Positions 22,220 to 35,590 of a stretch of DNA of 35,590 bases are shown here, piece by piece. Where the stretch lies: contig JAOPVX010000293.1 of the NCBI GenBank assembly GCA_025965975.1, positions 1 to 35,590 on the forward strand. Direction: 5' to 3'. Numbering within the stretch: position 1 is the stretch's first letter; every line of letters starts with the position of its first letter. Source of the stretch: Mycobacterium sp. Its GTDB lineage: Bacteria; Actinomycetota; Actinomycetes; Mycobacteriales; Mycobacteriaceae. The notes under the pieces were generated by a model. That model was given only the letters and a program-made list of their open reading frames with translations. It had not been told where the DNA came from and ran no database searches. Position numbers and translations under genes: made by a program.

Positions 22220-23860
22220 TTGACGAAACCGGCTGACCAGGCCCATGCCACCGATGACTTCGACGACGCGGTTGACCAGCTGCGCGCCGACTATGACAGG
22301 ACGCCCTACCACTCGGTTTCTTTTCCGCAGTCGGCGCCGGGACAGCTGGCCGCGGTCGCCCATTTGTTCGGGTTGGAAACGCGCGAGGTATCCAGCGCGC
22401 GCGTGCTCGAAATCGGCTGTGCCACCGGGGGCAACGTGATCCCGTTTGCCGCTGCGCATCCCCGGGCACGTGTCGTTGGCCTCGATCTTTCGCAGGTTCA
22501 GGTCGACCTAGGACGCGCGCGTGTGCAGGCATTGGGCTTGACCAATGTGGAGTTCGTCGCGGGTGATATCGCGCGGATGGATCTCACGGCATTGGGGCAG
22601 TTCGATTTCATCATCGCCCACGGCGTGTACAGCTGGGTGCCGCCGGCGGTGCAGGAAGCGCTGTTGTCCGCGTTTCGAAGGCTGCTGGTTCCCGAAGGCG
22701 TGGCCTACATGAGCTTCAACGTGTATCCGGGCTGGAAGTCCAAGCAGGTCCTTCGCGATGCCATGCAGTTGGCCAGCGGCGCCAGCGCCACCCCTGACGA
22801 GAAGGTCCGCGAGGCGCGCGGCATGGTCGACTTCCTCGAGGAGGTGTCACCGGCCGACGGTGTGCTGGCGCGAGTCATGGCCGATTTCCGTGCCCACTCA
22901 GAAGGTTTCGGGGATTCGCACCTGTTGCACGACGAACTTGAGACGTTCAACGCACCGTGCTATTTCTACGAAATGGTCGGACGTGCCGGCGCGCACGGTC
23001 TCGCCTATCTCGCGGAAGCCCGCCCCGAGGCAATGTTCCCCGGCAACTTCGGCCCCAAGGTTGAAGAGTATCTACTCAAGAAATGCGGGGGCGTCCAGGT
23101 GCTGGTGGAGCAGTACATCGATTTCGTCGTCAACCGCATGTTCCGCGAATCACTGCTGGTGCATGCCGAACGAGCGCCGCAGATCCGCTACCACCCGGAC
23201 CGCAGCCGTTTCCGCCGCTTGCACATCGCCGGGTGGGCGCCACCTGCTGACGGGCAGACTCGTCTCGATAAGTCCCGCCAGGAGTACCAGCAATCCGACG
23301 GTGCGACGCTGTTCACAAACGATCCCGGCATCAAGGCGGCGCTGGATGCGCTCACTGCCCGTTGGCCGTGGACGCTGTCACGACAGGAGCTGGTGGACGC
23401 GGTGCACGCACGGCTAGTCTCCGAAGGTCTCACGCCCAGCGCCAGCGTCCCAGACCTCGTCGACAATCTGATGGGAGTTCTGATCCTGCAGGGCCAGGCG
23501 CGTTACCGGCTTGATCCGGTGTTGCCGGAACCGGCACCCGCACCGTTACAGCTGGAGGAGGCGGCCAGGCGCATTGTGGAGCTGACGGGCAGTGAAAGCC
23601 AGGCGTCAACCTTCAACCTCTGGCACGAGACGCATATGTTGTCGCCGGTGGACCGCCATCTACTACCCCTGCTGGACGGCACCCGTGATCGCAATGCACT
23701 CGTCGAGGCCCTCCTGGCCGTCGACCGTGAGGACCCGATTCCGATCGAGCGCGATGGCAAGCCGGTGTCTGGCGAGGCCGAGCGGCGCGACGCCGTAATT
23801 GATTACATCGACGCGTTGCCACAACTCCTGACAGAGATGAAGCTGCTGCGAGTCAGCTGA
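22220..23860 (+). CDS. SAM-dependent methyltransferase with C-terminal regulatory domain
   Basis: The product has 546 residues. The class I methyltransferase domain occupies about 20-200, with VLEIGCATGGN for SAM, VVGLDLSQVQV ending in the acidic residue that holds the ribose, and FDFIIAHGVYSWVP. The second part, from about 210 on, has DFLEEVSPADGVLARVM and LHDELETFNAPCYFYEMV, which match the MethyTransf_Reg domain that follows such enzymes. A third winged-helix-like segment runs from about 380 to the end. The TTG at 22220 is preferred because AGGGAG lies six bases upstream and the conserved part starts soon after. An ATG at 22136 is in frame but preceded by no such site. It follows the ProRS gene by 200 bases; the methyl acceptor is unknown. 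Confidence 0.88.
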   Translation: MTKPADQAHATDDFDDAVDQLRADYDRTPYHSVSFPQSAPGQLAAVAHLFGLETREVSSARVLEIGCATGGNVIPFAAAHPRARVVGLDLSQVQVDLGRARVQALGLTNVEFVAGDIARMDLTALGQFDFIIAHGVYSWVPPAVQEALLSAFRRLLVPEGVAYMSFNVYPGWKSKQVLRDAMQLASGASATPDEKVREARGMVDFLEEVSPADGVLARVMADFRAHSEGFGDSHLLHDELETFNAPCYFYEMVGRAGAHGLAYLAEARPEAMFPGNFGPKVEEYLLKKCGGVQVLVEQYIDFVVNRMFRESLLVHAERAPQIRYHPDRSRFRRLHIAGWAPPADGQTRLDKSRQEYQQSDGATLFTNDPGIKAALDALTARWPWTLSRQELVDAVHARLVSEGLTPSASVPDLVDNLMGVLILQGQARYRLDPVLPEPAPAPLQLEEAARRIVELTGSESQASTFNLWHETHMLSPVDRHLLPLLDGTRDRNALVEALLAVDREDPIPIERDGKPVSGEAERRDAVIDYIDALPQLLTEMKLLRVS

Positions 23861-24138
23861 TTCTCGTCGCAACGCACGTTGGTTGTCCCCAGTGCCGCAC
23901 CGGCGTCCATCAAGCACGACAAGTCGGAGATCAGTGTGGCTCCACTCCGTCAGCCAGCGCTTGCCCGCTTCGCGGTGCCGACGCGGGGGTTTGTTGTAGC
24001 GTCTCAGTTTTGACTGCAAATTCTCAGTCATGATGCCCGGGTCAGGCGTTGATGTGCGATGTGGGTGTCCGATCCGCGTGCGGGGGCCTTGGCTACAACG
24101 TGCCGGGACAGATCACTTGTGCGACCGGCGAATCTGAG

Positions 24139-25260
24139 TGTGGTCACCTGACCTGGCCCCGTTGTTCTTCACGAATGTTGGCCCCTTCGGGGTGGTGATC
24201 ATTCCGGCGGGGTGGGTTCGGTGTGTCGTCACGAATTTTGGCCCCACCCTCGTTCAGATCGTTCCTGTCGCCCGTCGTCCCTGTCGGCCGTCGTCAGGGA
24301 GGGTCGGTCAGGATGCGGTCACGCGTGGAATTGTTCGAAAAGATCAGGAGAGACCGGCGGCTCGATGAACTGTCGATCCGCGAGCTTGCCGATCGTCACG
24401 GCGTGCACCGTCGGACGGTTCGGCAAGCGCTCACGGCCGCGGTTCCGCCGCCGCGGCGGGTGTATCCGGTTCGGCCCCGGCCGGCGATCGATCCGTGGGT
24501 CACGGTGATCGACGCCTGGCTCCTCGCAGACAAGGACGCTCCGCGCAAGCAGCGACATACTGCCCGGCGGGTCTGGCAGCGTCTGGTCGCCGAGCATCAG
24601 GCGAGCTTGGCGGAGGTGACGGTGTCGCGTTACGTCGCCCGGCGTCGGGTCGAACTCGGGCTGCTGACCCATGAGGTATCGATCCCGCAGACCCATCTGG
24701 TCGGGGCCGAGGCCGAGGTCGACTTCGGCGAGTTCTACTCGACGATCGCCGGCGTGGTCGTGAAGTGCTGGATGTTCGTGATGCGACTATCTCACTCGGG
24801 CAAAGCCTTTCACGTCGCGTTCGCCACTCAGGCGCAGGAAGCCTTCCTGGAGGGCCATGTGCTGGCCTTCCAGCATTTCGGGGGCGTGGCGGGCCGGGTC
24901 CGTTACGACAACCTCAAACCTGCTGTCGTTCGGGTACTCAAGGGCCGCGATCGCATCGGGTCTGAACGGTTCACCGCGCTGCGCAGCCACTACGGGTTCG
25001 ACTCGTTCTTCTGCCGTCCCGGCATCGACGGTGCCCACGAGAAGGGCGGCGTGGAGGGCGAGATCGGCCGCTTCCGGCGGCGCCACCTCGTCCCCAAGGT
25101 CGCCTCGCTGGGGGCGCTCAATGAGTTGATCGCCGCCGGTGATCGCCTCGACGACGATCGGGTGATCACCGGGCGCCCGGTCACGATCGGGGACGCGTTC
25201 GCCATCGAGGTGAGCGCACTGATGGGGTTGCCGGGCGAGGCGTTCGACTGCTCCACCGCC
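24139..25260 (+). mobile_element. Truncated IS21-family element (left end plus most of istA)
   Basis: The left end is proposed at TGTGGTCACCTGACCTGGCC (24139 onward). It is followed by two copies of a terminal-type repeat 60 bases apart and by an istA reading frame. There is no istB and no right end. The istA frame instead runs into Tn3-type transposase sequence at about 25250-25262. The element is therefore cut off on its right side, and only this end could still be recognised by an IS21 transposase supplied elsewhere. Confidence 0.7.
24169..24245. repeat. Paired IS21 end repeats
   Basis: TCACGAATGTTGGCCCC at 24169-24185 and TCACGAATTTTGGCCCC at 24229-24245 differ by one base and are spaced exactly 60 bases. 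IS21-family ends typically carry such multiple internal repeats as transposase binding sites. A third weaker match, CTGACCTGGCCCC, lies at about 24148-24160. Confidence 0.6.
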
Positions 25261-26178
25261 GTCGCCTCGGACTCCATGCATTTCGGATCGTTCGATCAGA
25301 ACATCTTCACCGAGTGGCATTCCCGTTACGGTGGTCGCGGCGTACTGATCTACTGGCACGTCGAGAAGGGCTCGGTGGTGATCCACTCGCAGCTGCTGAA
25401 CTGCTCGGCCTCCGAGGTCCACGCCATGGTCGACGGCGCGATCCGCCACGGCACCGACATGGCCGTGGAAGCCAATTACGTTGACACGCACGGCCAGTCG
25501 GAGATCGGATTCGGCATCACGAGGCTGCTCGGCTTCGACCTCCTGCCTCGGATCAAGCGGATCAACAAGGTGAAGCTGTACCGGCCCGCGGCCGGGGAAC
25601 CGGATCTGTGGCCGGGCCTGGCTCCGGCGATGACGCGCCCGATCCGGTGGGACCGTGTCGGCGAGCAGTATGACCAGATGCTCAAGTACGCCACCGCGAT
25701 CCGCGTCGGCACCGCCTCCACCGAGGCGATCCTGCGGCGGTTCATGAAGGCCAACGCGACCCACCCGACCTATCAGGCGATGATCGAGCTCGGCCGCGCA
25801 CAGAAGACGATCTTCCTCGCCCGCTATCTTCGCTCGCGCACCCTGCAACGCGAGATCCACGAAGGACTCAACGTGGTCGAGTCATGGAATCGGGCCAACA
25901 ACGTTATCTTCTACGGCAAGAACGGCGACCTCGCCACCAACCGCCGCGACGAGCAGGAAATGTCCGTGCTCTGTCTCCGGATCCTGCAGGCGGCTCTCGT
26001 GTACGTGAATACGCTTATGCTGCAAGACATTCTCGCCGATCCCGATTGGGAGGACGCGCTCACGGCCGAGGACGAGCGCGGCTTGACCCCCTTGTTTTGG
26101 TCGCACGTCCTGCCCTACGGAGAAGTGAAACTCAACATGTCGTCGCGGCTCGCGCTCGGCACGGCGCCGGATGCCTGA
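24313..26178 (+). CDS. Chimeric transposase: IS21 IstA fused in frame to Tn3 TnpA catalytic domain
   Basis: This is one open frame of 621 residues. Residues 1-312 are IstA: a helix-turn-helix (ELADRHGVHRRTVRQAL) and a complete DDE set, Asp 137 in AEVDFGEF, Asp 199 in RYDNLKPAV and Glu 248 in GGVEGEIGRF. At GLPGEAFDCSTAV the IstA pattern stops. VASDSMHFGSFDQN begins the RNase H-like domain of a Tn3 transposase, with Asp 320, Asp 391 in YVDTHGQSE, and the Glu of DEQE (546-549), continuing to a normal Tn3 C-terminus. The Tn3 N-terminal DNA-binding domains, about 650 residues, and the first part of its catalytic fold are missing. The ATG at 24313 has GGGAGG upstream; the frame opens at 24223 without a better start. 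It is probably the scar of a deletion between two elements and unlikely to work as a Tn3 transposase, yet the frame is unbroken. Confidence 0.88.
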   Translation: MRSRVELFEKIRRDRRLDELSIRELADRHGVHRRTVRQALTAAVPPPRRVYPVRPRPAIDPWVTVIDAWLLADKDAPRKQRHTARRVWQRLVAEHQASLAEVTVSRYVARRRVELGLLTHEVSIPQTHLVGAEAEVDFGEFYSTIAGVVVKCWMFVMRLSHSGKAFHVAFATQAQEAFLEGHVLAFQHFGGVAGRVRYDNLKPAVVRVLKGRDRIGSERFTALRSHYGFDSFFCRPGIDGAHEKGGVEGEIGRFRRRHLVPKVASLGALNELIAAGDRLDDDRVITGRPVTIGDAFAIEVSALMGLPGEAFDCSTAVASDSMHFGSFDQNIFTEWHSRYGGRGVLIYWHVEKGSVVIHSQLLNCSASEVHAMVDGAIRHGTDMAVEANYVDTHGQSEIGFGITRLLGFDLLPRIKRINKVKLYRPAAGEPDLWPGLAPAMTRPIRWDRVGEQYDQMLKYATAIRVGTASTEAILRRFMKANATHPTYQAMIELGRAQKTIFLARYLRSRTLQREIHEGLNVVESWNRANNVIFYGKNGDLATNRRDEQEMSVLCLRILQAALVYVNTLMLQDILADPDWEDALTAEDERGLTPLFWSHVLPYGEVKLNMSSRLALGTAPDA

Positions 26179-26760
26179 TCAAGTCTCGCTGGACTGCTGC
26201 CCCACGGCGCTGCGAAGATACTGATAAACTGTCTCCCGGCTAATCCCGAAGTCCTTGGCCAGCAACGTTCTCGACTCGCCGGCGAATGCGCGGCGCCGGA
26301 GTTCGGCGACCTGTTGGGTCGTCAGGGACCGTTTGCGGCCGCGGTAGGCGCCGCGCAAACGCGCCTGAGCGATGCCCTCGCGTTGTCGTTCCCGGATCAA
26401 CGCGCGTTCGAACTCGGCGAATGCCCCCATCACCGACAGCAACAGCGTCGCCGTCGCTGTGTCCTCGCCGGTGAAAGTCAGGTTCTCCGTGACGAATTGG
26501 ACACGAACCCCCTTGCCCGTCAACGCCCGCACCAACCGCCGAAGATCGTCGAGATTTCGCGCCAGCCGGTCCATCGAGTGCACGACGACGGTGTCGCCGT
26601 CTCGGACAAAAGCGAGCAGCGCGTCCAGATGCGGCCGCACGACGTCCTTGCCTGACGCATTGTCCGTGAACACTCGATCCAGCTCGACACCATCGAGCTG
26701 GCGATCGGTGCGTTGATCCAACGTGCTGACCCGAACGTAGCCGACTCGCTGTCCCGCCAT
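26179..26760 (-). CDS. tnpR: Tn3-type resolvase, serine recombinase
   Basis: This 193-residue resolvase/invertase has the catalytic Ser 12 in GYVRVSTLDQ and the arginine-containing HSMDRLARN. GAFAEFERALIRERQREG forms the long E-helix, and a C-terminal Hin-type helix-turn-helix includes LLAKDFGISRETVYQYL. It would resolve transposition cointegrates at a res site. The ATG at 26760 has GGAGG about six bases upstream; the frame continues to 26901 without motifs. Its stop codon directly abuts the transposase stop, so the two genes converge with no space between. All catalytic parts look intact, so the resolvase may remain active even though its transposase partner is broken. Confidence 0.95.
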   Translation of the reverse strand: MAGQRVGYVRVSTLDQRTDRQLDGVELDRVFTDNASGKDVVRPHLDALLAFVRDGDTVVVHSMDRLARNLDDLRRLVRALTGKGVRVQFVTENLTFTGEDTATATLLLSVMGAFAEFERALIRERQREGIAQARLRGAYRGRKRSLTTQQVAELRRRAFAGESRTLLAKDFGISRETVYQYLRSAVGQQSSET

Positions 26761-26891
26761 CGTGCCCTCCAACCCGAAGGTGTCAGGCTGAACTCTGAGA
26801 CCCTCGCGGGCCGTGTGTCCAACAATTCCGATTCGCACCCTATTCTGACACAGTTCGCGCGCAGATCGGACGTCCAGTTGGGGTGTACCCC
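26761..26891. promoter_or_regulatory. Candidate res site and transposon end
   Basis: Upstream of the resolvase start there is an inverted pair, GTGTCAG near 26782 and CTGACAC at 26845-26851. A perfect hairpin TGGGGT/ACCCCA lies at about 26878-26891. Resolvases bind subsites placed directly before their own gene, so this is the expected place for res. Individual subsites could not be assigned. Confidence 0.4.
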
Positions 26892-26934
26892 AGATGGACA
26901 CCTCCCCGCAGGGGGTGGCCGAGTGGCGAGTGGA

Positions 26935-27126
26935 TTACTCCCCGCGGAAGTCCGGAGGCCGCTTCTCGAGGAAGGCACGAAGTCCCTCGTCGGCGTCGGC
27001 GGTGCTCTGACTGACCGCCGTGGTCAGTGCCTCCGCCCATAATCCGTCGTTGCGGGACATGTCGCCGATGCGTGGCAGTGCGGTGAGGATGAGTTGGTTG
27101 GTCAACGGTGCGTTGCCGACTTCCCG
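26935..27126 (-). pseudogene. C-terminal stub of an enoyl-CoA hydratase
   Basis: About 63 codons read GNAPLTNQLILTALPRIGDM, then DGLWAEALTTAVSQST and LRAFLEKRPPDFRGE before a normal stop. AFLEKRPPxFxG is the classic end of mycobacterial enoyl-CoA hydratases (crotonase family). The catalytic core, about 200 residues, is missing, because the upstream side is replaced near 27127-27133 by recombinase sequence on the other strand. The stub begins 44 bases from the putative Tn3 end. Confidence 0.8.
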
Positions 27127-27132
27127 ATACAT

Positions 27133-27267
27133 CTCGCCGCAAAGCTAGTCGGGCACAACAACATCGAAGTCGCTCAGGGTTATACCGCGGTCTACCAAAA
27201 GGATGTGTTCGACGCCTACGCACGGTTCATCACCAACCGCGCCGACTCGCCAGACCCTCGAGCCTAA
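27133..27267 (+). pseudogene. C-terminal stub of a tyrosine recombinase/integrase
   Basis: The 44 codons include LAAKLVGHNNIEVAQGYTAV, then YQKDVFDAYARFITNR, and a TAA stop. LxGHxxIxxxxxYxxVY is the conserved end of phage-integrase-type recombinases, in which the Tyr of QGYTAVY is the nucleophile position. Everything before it, including the catalytic Arg residues, is lost. GGAGG follows the stop directly, with a GTG two bases on that opens only 16 codons (27275-27325). This may be the cut-off start of a second recombinase, as in the tandem recombinase arrays of Tn554-like elements. Confidence 0.7.
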
Positions 27268-27500
27268 GGAGGTCGTGAACCGCGCGTCCAGCCCGGCATT
27301 GATTGACTTGCGAGAGTGGTCGTGAACGGCACTTCGTCACAAACTAGCCGGCGAGGTGTTGCGCGACGCCTGTCGGTTCTCACGGCGGCTGAACCATGTT
27401 GCAGCAGATCGGTTGGTGATAAACGCGCTGTTCAGGGAGTGTGACGCCCTATCCTGGGAGAACCCCGACAACTCCGGGGACCGCGGACGTGGAGGGTCGG

Positions 27501-30500
27501 ATGACGGCGGCGACGGCGTGCCGGACATGTGGGACTGAACCGCTGGAGAATGCTCGTTTCTGTCATGGCTGCGGTTCCCCTCTCGTCTGGTCGGAGACCC
27601 GCGCGGAGTACAAGCAGGTAACTGTGTTGTTCGCCGACGTGGTGCATTCGATGGACATCGCTGCACGGGTAGGGCCGGAGCGCCTGCGCGAGATCATGGC
27701 GGAATTACTGGATTGTTCGACAGCCGTGGTCAAGCGCTACGGCGGGACCGTCAATCAGTTCACCGGCGACGGCATCATGGCCGTGTTCGGCGCACCAACC
27801 GCCCTGGAGGACCATGCCTTTCGCGCGTGTCTGTCAGCTCTGGAGGTCCAACGGGCAACGGAAATAGTTGCGTTCGAGGTCAACCGGCGCGACGGTATCG
27901 AGTTCCGATTACGGATAGGCCTGAACTCAGGTCAGGTCATCGCGGGCGAAGTCGGTTCGAGCCCTCTGGGGTACACGGCCATCGGCGAACAGGTCGGGAC
28001 GGCCCAACGCATGGAATCGGTTGCCCCGCCCGGTGGAGTGATGCTCAGCGAGTCCACCGCACACCTGGTCGAGCACGCCACCATCCTCGGTGAGCCTGAA
28101 CTGGTACGCATCAAGGGCGCTGACACACCGGTGCCCGCCAGGCGGCTGCTGGGCATCGGTGATCATGCGCCCAGTCGCCGCACCGAATCACCCCTGGTCG
28201 GCCGCACTTGGGAAATCGGCACCGTCACCGCGATTCTCGAGGAAGCCGTCGGCGGCGCCGGGTGTGTGGTCAGTGTCTCGGGCCTGGCGGGCATCGGCAA
28301 GAGCCGACTGGTGCGCGAAGCCGCGGCGCTCGCGGCGAGCCGCGGGGTTCCGGTGTTCACCACCTACTGCGAGTCCCACGCCCGCGACATCCCTTTCCAT
28401 GTGGTGGCCCGGTTGTTGCGCGCCGCCCTGGGGGTGGCAGATCTCGACGACGGGGCGGCCCGGGCAGCCATACGCGTTCAAGTCCCCGACGCCGACCCGC
28501 AAGACCTGCTGTTACTCGATGACCTGCTGGGCATCCGCGACGCCGCGGTGGCGTTGCCCGACATTGCACCCGACGCCCGTCGGCGGCGGTTGACGGCGCT
28601 GGTCGATGCCGTCGCGCTGGCGCGGGAGACCCCGGGGGTGTATGTCGTGGAGGACGTGCACTGGATCGACGAGGTCAGTGAATCCATGCTGGCGGACTTC
28701 TTTGCGGTGGTCCCGCGCACGCCGGCGCTGGTGTTGATCACCTACCGCCCCGAATACCATGGCGCGCTGAGCAGGGTGTCGGGCGCGCAGACCATCGCGC
28801 TGCGGCCGCTGACCGATGCGCAAACCTCGGCGTTGACCGCCGAACTGCTCGGCTCGGACCCATCGCTCAGCGGGGTGGCTGCGCTGATCTGCGCCCGCGC
28901 AGTCGGCAACCCGTTTTTCGTCGAGGAGATCGTGCGCAATCTGGCCGAACGCGGCACACTGTACGGCGAGCCCGGCGCCTACCTGCTGCGCGGTGACGTC
29001 GCCGACGTCCGTGTGCCGGCCACCCTGCAGGCCACCATCGGCGCGCGCATCGACCGGCTGGGCTTCACCGCCAAACACACCCTGAATGCCGCGGCGGTGA
29101 TCGGGTCACGATTCGACACCGACCTGCTGACCAGCCTGGTCGACAGTCCGGACGTGGCACCGCTCATCGAGGCGGAGCTCGTCGATCAGGTGCGCTTCAC
29201 CCAACGCGCCGAGTACGCGTTTCGGCACCCGCTGATCCGCACGGTGGCCTACGAGTCGCAGCTTAAATCCGATCGTGCCGCTTTGCACCGGCGCCTGGCC
29301 GCCACGATCGAACACCGCCAACCGGAATCGGCCGACGAGAATGCGGCCCTGATCGCCGAGCACCTGGAGGCCGCCGGCGATCTCCGCGGGGCCTTTGGCT
29401 GGCATATGCGCGCCGGAACCTGGTCGACCAACCGCGACATCGCCGCGGCGCAGACGAGCTGGCGCAGGGCTCGGCAGGTCGCCGATCGGCTCCCCGACGA
29501 CGACCCCGACCGGGCCGCGATGCGCATCGCGCCGCGCACCCTGCTATCTGGCAGCGCATGGCGAGTGGGTGGCAGCGGCGCCGACACCGGCTTTGAGGAA
29601 CTGCGCGACCTCTGCACGGCGGCCGGCGACCACGTATCGCTGGCCATCGGCATGACCGGTCAGGTGGTCGCGACCTTCTTTAATGCGCACCGTCGGGAGG
29701 CATCTCGTCTCGCCACCGAACACACCGCACTTCTCGAATCGATCGGCGACCCGACGTTGACGGTCGCACTGTCGTTCGCCGCCCTTGCAGCCGAGCACGA
29801 GACCGGCGAGATGGCCGAAGTGTTGCGGTTGGCCCAGCGCGTCATCGACCTCGCCGACGGCGACCCCACCAAAGGCAACCTGATCTTCGGATCACCGCTG
29901 GCAGCCGCGATCGCATTCCGCGGCGCCGCCCGATGGTGCCTGGGCATTCCCGGCTGGAAGGACGACTTCGCCCAGGCCGTCGCCATGGCGCGTGCGACCG
30001 ACCCGACCGCCCTGGCCGGTGTGATCTACCACACGTACCCTCTCGCGATTCCCGGTGGGGCGTTGCTGCCCGATGCGACCGCCCTGCGTGACACCGCCGA
30101 CGCACTGGCGAGCGCGGAGCGGTCGGGTGACGAAATAGCGCTGCACATTACCCGATTCGCTCGAGGTATCACCCTGGCCCATCGGCATGGTCCGGAGCGC
30201 GAGGCCGGGTTCGCCCTGCTTGCGCAGGTCCGTGAAGCCGCCGTACAGCAGCGGTTCAGTTTGACCGCGCTACCGATTGTCGACATCCACCTCGCACACC
30301 AGAAGGCCAGATCCGGAGATCTCGACGGCGCCATCGAACTAGCGCGGACAGTCCTCGAGGACTTGTTCGGCTCGGGTGGGGCCATTTGGAGTGTGCTGGC
30401 CACCACCGTTCTAGTGGAAGCGCTAGTGCGCCGCGGCAGCGACGGCGACCTGCAGGAGGCGCAGGCCGCGGTCGAGAGGTTGGCGGCGGTGCCGACCGAC

Positions 30501-34851: not shown

Positions 34852-35399
34852 AACATGCCGTCCTTATCGTGAGGGCGGGTTCGTGGATGCGTTCGCCGGC
34901 CCCCCAAGCCGGAACCAAGTTGATGCCACACTTTTGACGAAACGCGCTCAGCGAGCGTCGGTTATATGTGTAGTGCAACCCGTGCGCTCACCACAGGTCC
35001 GATGCATGTCACCAACGCGGCTAATAGCAAGAAGACGCGATTCGCCGTTGCCGTTACGGATAAGCCGTGCGGATTGCGGCCGGTGACACGATCCTTACCG
35101 ACACCCCTAGTGGAAATACTTGACGACTTCATCGCCGCCACCGCGGCGCCACATGCCGATCTGACGAATCGAAAAACTTGATCAGCACGTTGATGCGGCG
35201 AGCGTCGGCTTCTCATTCTCTCCGGTGTCGGTCCCGACAGCTGCCAATCTGAACCGTCGGGACCTCAGAATTCTGGGCGGCCGGCCGCACACAACTCCGT
35301 ACCTCGCGAATACCCTGTTTCGGCTGCGGCAACCGTCCGACCTGGCTGGCGAGGGTCGTGGCTCCGGGTCGGCTAGCAGGCTGAGTCCGCCAGAGCCAC
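34852..35399. other. No gene recognised
   Basis: These 548 bases contain short open frames on both strands (for example 34962-35216 minus and 34966-35181 plus), but none has a ribosome site with a recognisable product. Nothing further was seen. Confidence 0.4.
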
Positions 35400-35590
35400 T
35401 TACATTTTGGTGTATCGGGCCATGGCGAAGCTGTACAGGCCGTAGGTGATGATTCCCAGGCCGGCGGCGATCAGGAGTGCTGCTCAGTAGGGTTGGGCAC
35501 CGAGCGTTTTGAGGGCCCCGTCGAGTCCGGTGGCCTTGTTCGGCTGCGAACGGCTGGCCGCGACGATGACCAGCACCCCGGCGCCGGCGA
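35400..35590 (-). pseudogene. C-terminal end of a DUF1206 membrane protein with an in-frame TGA
   Basis: Reading leftward from the window edge, the frame gives AGAGVLVIVAASRSQPNKAT, then LDGALKTLGAQPY, a TGA at 35484-35486, then AALLIAAGLGIITYGLYSFA and MARYTKM before a TAA. TLGAQPYG followed by LLxxxALGLxxYGxYSFxxARY is the repeated two-helix unit of DUF1206 proteins. The TGA sits where a Gly codon (GGA) is expected, so one base change explains it. The product would lose its last membrane helix. The N-terminal part lies outside the window. Confidence 0.75.

Follow-up and report, generated by a model that had tools for sequence, protein, structure and literature searches.

An in-frame fusion of IS21 istA with the catalytic region of a Tn3-family tnpA in a Mycobacterium genome, most likely an ordinary deletion scar

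Transposons of the Tn3 family make a 5-bp target duplication, carry inverted repeats at both ends, and encode a transposase (TnpA) of about 1000 residues and a serine resolvase. IS21 elements are recognized by a transposase (IstA) with HTH, DDE and beta-barrel domains, by an adjacent istB gene, and by two repeat-bearing ends. Integration of IS21 in vitro is reported to need both IstA and IstB and to be weakened by a change in the C-terminal region of IstA; the beta-barrel of IS5376 IstA is described as starting at residue 300 (PMC10122671). The solved structure of Tn4430 TnpA provides the order of domains used here and the catalytic residues D679, D751 and E881, and according to the same account the TnpA catalytic domain needs transposon-end binding in order to refold into its active form (PMC9579193). 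Reading-frame fusions made by mobile elements have been published, as in the transposase gene fusion ureC::IS5075 of Klebsiella pneumoniae, which its authors judge likely accidental. That case resembles the present one in being such a fusion but differs in that, as its authors describe it, the element was inserted into a host gene and a second transposase is absent (PMC8269217). Among the papers listed on chimeric, fused or hybrid transposases, titles and opening lines of abstracts yielded no natural IS21-Tn3 fusion.

The locus described here lies in a stretch of 35,590 bp, hereafter the window, which is a whole contig of a draft Mycobacterium sp. assembly (449 contigs, completeness 93.4%). 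An ORF on the + strand (24223-26178) encodes 651 aa from a GTG and has 621 codons from the ATG at 24313; the latter is taken to be the natural start, with a GGGAGG ribosome-binding-like sequence upstream. The frame 24313-26178 joins residues 1-313 of an IS21 IstA to the C-terminal 308 residues of a Tn3 TnpA, in the following setting:

24135..24312, + strand: IS21 left end (starts TGAGTGTGGTCACCTG); IS21 DNA similarity begins at 24127-24135, and end-type repeats are present
24313..25251, + strand: IstA half, residues 1-313, with two HTH domains and a DDE domain (NF033546; DNA identity)
25250-25252, + strand: IS21/Tn3 breakpoint (base-by-base comparison with 9 IS21 and 10 Tn3 relatives)
25252..26178, + strand: TnpA half, residues 314-621 and stop (PF01526; aligns with Tn4430 TnpA 673-965)
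26179..26901, - strand: serine resolvase, convergent with tnpA, likely start near 26760 (Pfam Resolvase and HTH_7)
35074..35111, - strand: Tn3 right-type terminal inverted repeat, 33 of 38 bases identical to L173 2943-2980, orientation matched to tnpA

In the 651-aa version, the NCBIfam IS21 transposase model NF033546 matches aa 43-337 (218.8 bits, cut-off 160) and the Pfam family DDE_Tnp_Tn3 (PF01526) matches aa 341-634 (340.5 bits, cut-off 24); the two matches almost touch each other. The NCBIfam whole-protein Tn3 model reaches 329.1, under its cut-off of 500, which is what a fragment of TnpA should give. The ORF and these profile matches bear out the unbroken 621-codon frame, fusing IS21 IstA to the Tn3 TnpA catalytic domain, that a preliminary description of this DNA had announced. 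The same description credited the frame with two complete catalytic sets, and every residue that it numbered is found: D137, D199 and E248 of IstA, invariant in a four-row alignment (A3), and D320 and D391, which align with D679 and D751 of Tn4430 TnpA. The third Tn3 residue had been placed at the Glu of a DEQE motif (E549), whereas it is E523 (GLNVVESWN) that aligns with Tn4430 E881; the Tn3 triad of the fusion is nonetheless complete.

Similarity to the closest IS21 copies extends from 24127-24135 to 25250-25254 of the window, and that to most Tn3 copies from 25250-25252 to about 26139-26166. DNA identity is highest, at 84%, between the IstA half and L005/L134, and at 82% between the TnpA half and both L054 and L025. 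Since the best relatives match up to the breakpoint at these identities, the composition of the frame from two halves is, as judged from the sequence, beyond chance. Alignment of each half to its own family, proposed earlier as a check, has placed the breakpoint at 25250-25252. Bases 25250-25251 (GC) fit both families, a possible 2-bp overlap, and the longest collinear identity between the 9 IS21 and 10 Tn3 relatives at this point is 3 bp. In the protein, the join lies between residues 313 and 314, close to the first Tn3 catalytic Asp as had been claimed, at six residues before D320 and not at about four codons. The last IstA residue, C313, aligns with approximately residue 298 of IS5376 IstA, and the first Tn3 residue, S314, with residue 673 of Tn4430 TnpA; on the IstA side, the cut thus falls within about two residues of the boundary between the DDE domain and the beta-barrel, and on the TnpA side the first catalytic Asp comes six residues after it.

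Such a cut is tidier than a random cut need be, which is a point against reading the fusion as a deletion scar. It would suit an expressed and kept chimeric DNA-binding protein, joined at domain boundaries, that occupies IS21 ends and blocks or redirects IS21 transposition. In such a protein, IS21 end-binding and DDE domains would be combined with a Tn3 catalytic region that replaces the IstA beta-barrel, a combination that is possible but unsupported. A kept protein of this kind is very improbable: the searches made yielded no orthologue for a test of selection, and the IstA half is two residues short of a motif kept by the intact relatives.

The nearest named IS21 copies are those on Mycolicibacterium chubuense plasmid pMYCCH.01 (L134) and on a plasmid of Ca. 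Mycobacterium methanotrophicum (L136), where the intact gene order with istB is seen. With these the window shares, at 84% DNA identity, the left end, the start of istA, the two HTH domains and the DDE domain. Repeats within the left end (near 24135-24160, 24166-24185 and 24226-24245) are of the type seen at both ends of the two intact copies, and the left end presumably carries the istA promoter. In contrast to the family, the window has neither beta-barrel nor C-terminal tail in IstA (alignment to IS5376 IstA), no istB and no right end. IS21 similarity ends at 25251-25254 with Tn3 sequence in the place of istB, and the only right-end-type motif found in the window is within the left end, on the - strand. 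Neither the full IstA domain set, nor the adjacent istB, nor the pair of repeat-bearing ends that mark an IS21 element is present in full. Also gone are two residues of the [VTC]PxP proline motif just after E248, which is kept in 39 of 39 intact IstA relatives (34 fit the pattern as first written, and five have Cys). Elsewhere among the loci, an IS21 copy with an internal deletion (L034) matches the istA of the window in two abutting pieces, leaving about 24432-24774 unmatched, and a further locus (L174:2566-2695) has a second IS21 left end directly beside the first, as if the left ends were in tandem.

The TnpA half retains the catalytic RNase H-like region, the scaffold and the C-terminal tail; DNA-binding domains 1-4, the dimerisation domain and the linker, which make up the N-terminal two thirds of TnpA, are missing. 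Near copies are found in Phytoactinopolyspora endophytica (L054), in another genome of the genus (L173) and on a Nocardia asteroides plasmid (L135). Shared with these are the full catalytic region (79-82% DNA identity), a resolvase and a right-type inverted repeat, whereas the window has lost the N-terminal two thirds of TnpA and the left inverted repeat. The serine resolvase at 26179-26901 is one part of the Tn3 equipment that is present; a TnpA of about 1000 residues and inverted repeats at both ends are not. The convergent order of tnpA and resolvase also occurs in L131, which is collinear with the window over 25252-26673. This Intrasporangium MAG locus (L131:5398-7403) is itself another 5'-shortened Tn3 tnpA with the convergent resolvase of the window.

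The repeat at 35074-35111 matches one in L173, in which an intact Tn3 is bracketed by two repeats, and it is the probable right end of the Tn3 element of the window. When the window was scanned with the right repeat of L173, no second repeat was found, the next best site matching at 23 of 38 bases. A repeat near tnpA was also sought with five Tn3 repeats over 23801-27700 and was rejected, the best score (22 of 36) being background. The convincing repeat is 9 kb from the tnpA remnant, a distance that suggests a formerly long Tn3 with cargo. The element would once have extended to about 35107, enclosing such cargo; between remnant and repeat there are now the resolvase, a cyclase/AAA gene, an oxidoreductase-like gene and IS110 pieces. 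To the left of the IS21 end lie a methyltransferase gene and proS, both of which are also neighbours in a relative (L167). None of the four loci that share the methyltransferase flank (L167-L170) has a match to window sequence beyond 35111, and an empty site is therefore not defined; a search of the own genome for a second copy of 23860-24140 returned that segment only.

The IS21 end at 24135 and the Tn3 repeat at 35074-35111 bracket the region that holds the chimeric gene, which would suit a composite mobile element of a new kind, with the IS21 left end and the Tn3 right end as substrates of the chimeric transposase. The arrangement is, however, seen as a single copy in one genome only, the Tn3 half has no DNA-binding domains 1-4, which are reported to be needed for refolding of the catalytic domain (PMC9579193), and istB is absent, yet IS21 integration in vitro is described as needing IstA and IstB together (PMC10122671). 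A composite element is extremely improbable, and presumably neither the IS21 nor the Tn3 remnant can move itself.

It is highly probable that the fusion is a deletion scar joining IS21 and Tn3 remnants. An IS21 would have adjoined, or sat inside, a Tn3-family transposon in the same orientation, and one deletion would have run from istA codon 313 to about tnpA codon 673-687. This event would have taken the remainder of istA, istB and the right end from IS21, and the left end together with two thirds of tnpA from Tn3. The ends, sharing 0-2 bp of sequence, may have been joined by end joining or by other illegitimate recombination, and the frame would have survived by a one-in-three chance. Left behind would be an IS21 left end before a chimeric frame, with no working transposase of either family. 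The own assembly encodes Ku, which may make non-homologous end joining possible; a junction left by other illegitimate recombination would look alike. The chimera should be inert as a transposase, because the Tn3 end-binding domains are missing and IS21 integration in vitro needs IstB. A single precursor copy was not seen among the loci examined, and this counts against a scar. The geometry is illustrated by plasmid pSA3 of Novosphingobium resinovorum (L176:4001-8166), where a whole IS21 with istA and istB lies ahead of a 5'-truncated tnpA of like orientation, after which comes a recombinase gene. It is like the window in having IS21 directly upstream of such a tnpA, with a recombinase gene next; unlike the window, it keeps both IS21 genes and unfused frames, and the proteins are 35% and 56% identical. 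It is an analogue from another phylum, not an ancestor.

A query of 124 residues across the junction was compared with 396 genomes of the genus, 401 of the family, 397 of the order and 335 of the class, which are overlapping samples of larger groups. Matches of any kind occurred in 30, 40, 32 and 40 genomes, respectively, own genome included, and at all four levels only the own genome covered positions 1-124 among the matches listed. A second fusion, which the preliminary description had suggested looking for in mycobacterial genomes, is thus not seen in the 396 genomes of the genus, among the matches listed. Wide genome matches reach 12-124 at 65% identity, and those sampled hold one half only; eight of them, with the halves tested apart, were rejected as further fusions for this reason. 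Also set aside were G291 (query 2-81 at 54%), an IstA; G1118 (14-124 at 64%), a TnpA; and a Pelobacter propionicus protein matching 210-646 of the 651 residues, which is a full-length TnpA whose low-similarity alignment spreads into the IstA half. A scan of IMG/VR found no fusion, and of 21 phage records matched, none had one place covering 80%. Plasmids gave 998 records with the junction query, six of them with one place covering at least 80% of it; the three widest (95-99% of the query, 43-44% identity) proved to be Tn3 only, and neither these nor the other plasmid records examined, including one from Rhodococcus ruber (L179), hold the fusion. With the whole protein, tblastn matched at least 5000 plasmid records, 15 of which had one joined place covering at least 80%; the only one of those 15 among the matches listed is pSA3 (L176), which is unfused. 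Over 259 loci, the IstA half was found in 81 and the Tn3 half in 134; the eight with both are seven copies of the window and L176. The same fusion in more than one lineage, as expected of a conserved chimeric family, was therefore not found in the genomes, viral contigs and plasmids examined, from which collections records of the own genome or very near ones may be omitted.

Within the own assembly, the fusion alone passes the IS21 cut-off, next to five weaker fragments, and it is the sole match to the Tn3 domain. The intact IS21 and Tn3 parents that had been expected elsewhere in the genome did not appear in this assembly. The draft state of the assembly, with 449 contigs, a contig of 35,590 bp here and 93.4% completeness, leaves room for a junction artefact, either a chimeric library molecule or a misjoin of IS21 and Tn3 in assembly. 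A misjoin by shared words needs shared sequence, however. At the junction the families have no more than 3 collinear bases in common, and no other copy of either half, hence no visible repeat to confuse, is found in the assembly, which makes such a misjoin unlikely. The contig end overlaps its neighbour by 49 identical bases, which suggests an assembly word of about that size. An artefact is quite improbable. In this overlap the window ends with the 49 bases with which contig C313 of the assembly begins; in addition, window positions 35373-35590 have a 94% identical copy at C313:2207-2423.

The preliminary description had left a choice between a recent scar and a kept protein. For the former speak the absence of the fusion from the relatives searched, the presence of neither element with both its ends, and another in-frame IstA fusion in the genus, described below; the latter has gained no positive support. 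The freedom from stops since the fusion, to which it had pointed, is no evidence of maintenance, because each side just inherited its own unbroken frame. Conserved columns were taken from relatives that match at least 95% of the half in one unbroken stretch; in the window they are changed at 2 of 91 positions in IstA (26 intact relatives) and at 0 of 118 in Tn3 (57 intact relatives). At least two changed columns are seen in 15 of the 26 IstA relatives, so the window is within or below the range of its relatives. This test passed over gaps and therefore missed the two-residue IstA deletion, which was shown by alignment A3. In mean pairwise dN/dS, the IstA half (0.166) ranks 11th of 17 sequences, inside the range of its intact relatives (0.136-0.215), and the Tn3 half (0.167) has the lowest value of 15. 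With dS to the relatives listed at 0.49-0.95, nearly all of the divergence may predate the fusion, and the substitution tests then show only that decay is not far advanced. Neither half has an excess of substitutions, which counts against a deletion scar.

The same lack of excess would be expected of a retained regulator, in which the IstA HTH domains would bind the IS21 left end and its own upstream region and silence IS21 in the manner of a dominant-negative transposase. Both HTH domains and the left-end repeats are present, the cut is at or near domain boundaries, and the N-terminal helical domains are the most confident part of a weak AlphaFold model of the full fusion (mean pLDDT 47.9, intact TnpA control absent). 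In that model part of the IstA catalytic domain is also predicted with confidence and the Tn3 half is not; folded alone with 33 sequences, the Tn3 half has a mean pLDDT of 40.6, again with the intact TnpA control absent. A regulator is nevertheless quite improbable, as no intact IS21 to be regulated was found in the assembly, where only the fusion passes the family cut-off beside the five weaker fragments, no orthologue emerged in the searches made, and the motif that has lost two residues is kept by all 39 intact relatives.

The best reading is that of a fairly young scar, in frame by luck, and a chance deletion is most likely, rather than the birth of a new working enzyme. In-frame accidents between mobile-element genes recur, as seen in a sample of six loci chosen for exceptionally long IstA- or Tn3-bearing frames. 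In another genome of the genus, a 708-codon frame (L244:1710-3833, + strand) joins an IS21 IstA to a Mutator-family transposase. Like the window, it has a truncated IstA in frame with an unrelated transposase; it differs in the partner, which is joined near its N-terminus, and in the breakpoint, which is in or just after the beta-barrel. In another family of the order, IstA and IstB form one 805-codon frame with no stop between them (L246:963-3377, - strand). Two further loci (L243:104-3205 and L247:555-3548) have stop-to-stop frames of about 1000 codons, in which 450-500 codons with no Pfam match precede the IstA match.

The sequence feature is real, and it is most likely an ordinary deletion scar that happens to carry an in-frame chimeric frame. 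If so, it is another case of decaying mobile elements yielding long chimeric frames that are annotated as transposases, and it cautions against taking two catalytic triads in an intact frame as evidence of function. If the protein were expressed and bound IS21 ends, it would represent a natural domain swap between DDE transposase families with different activation requirements.
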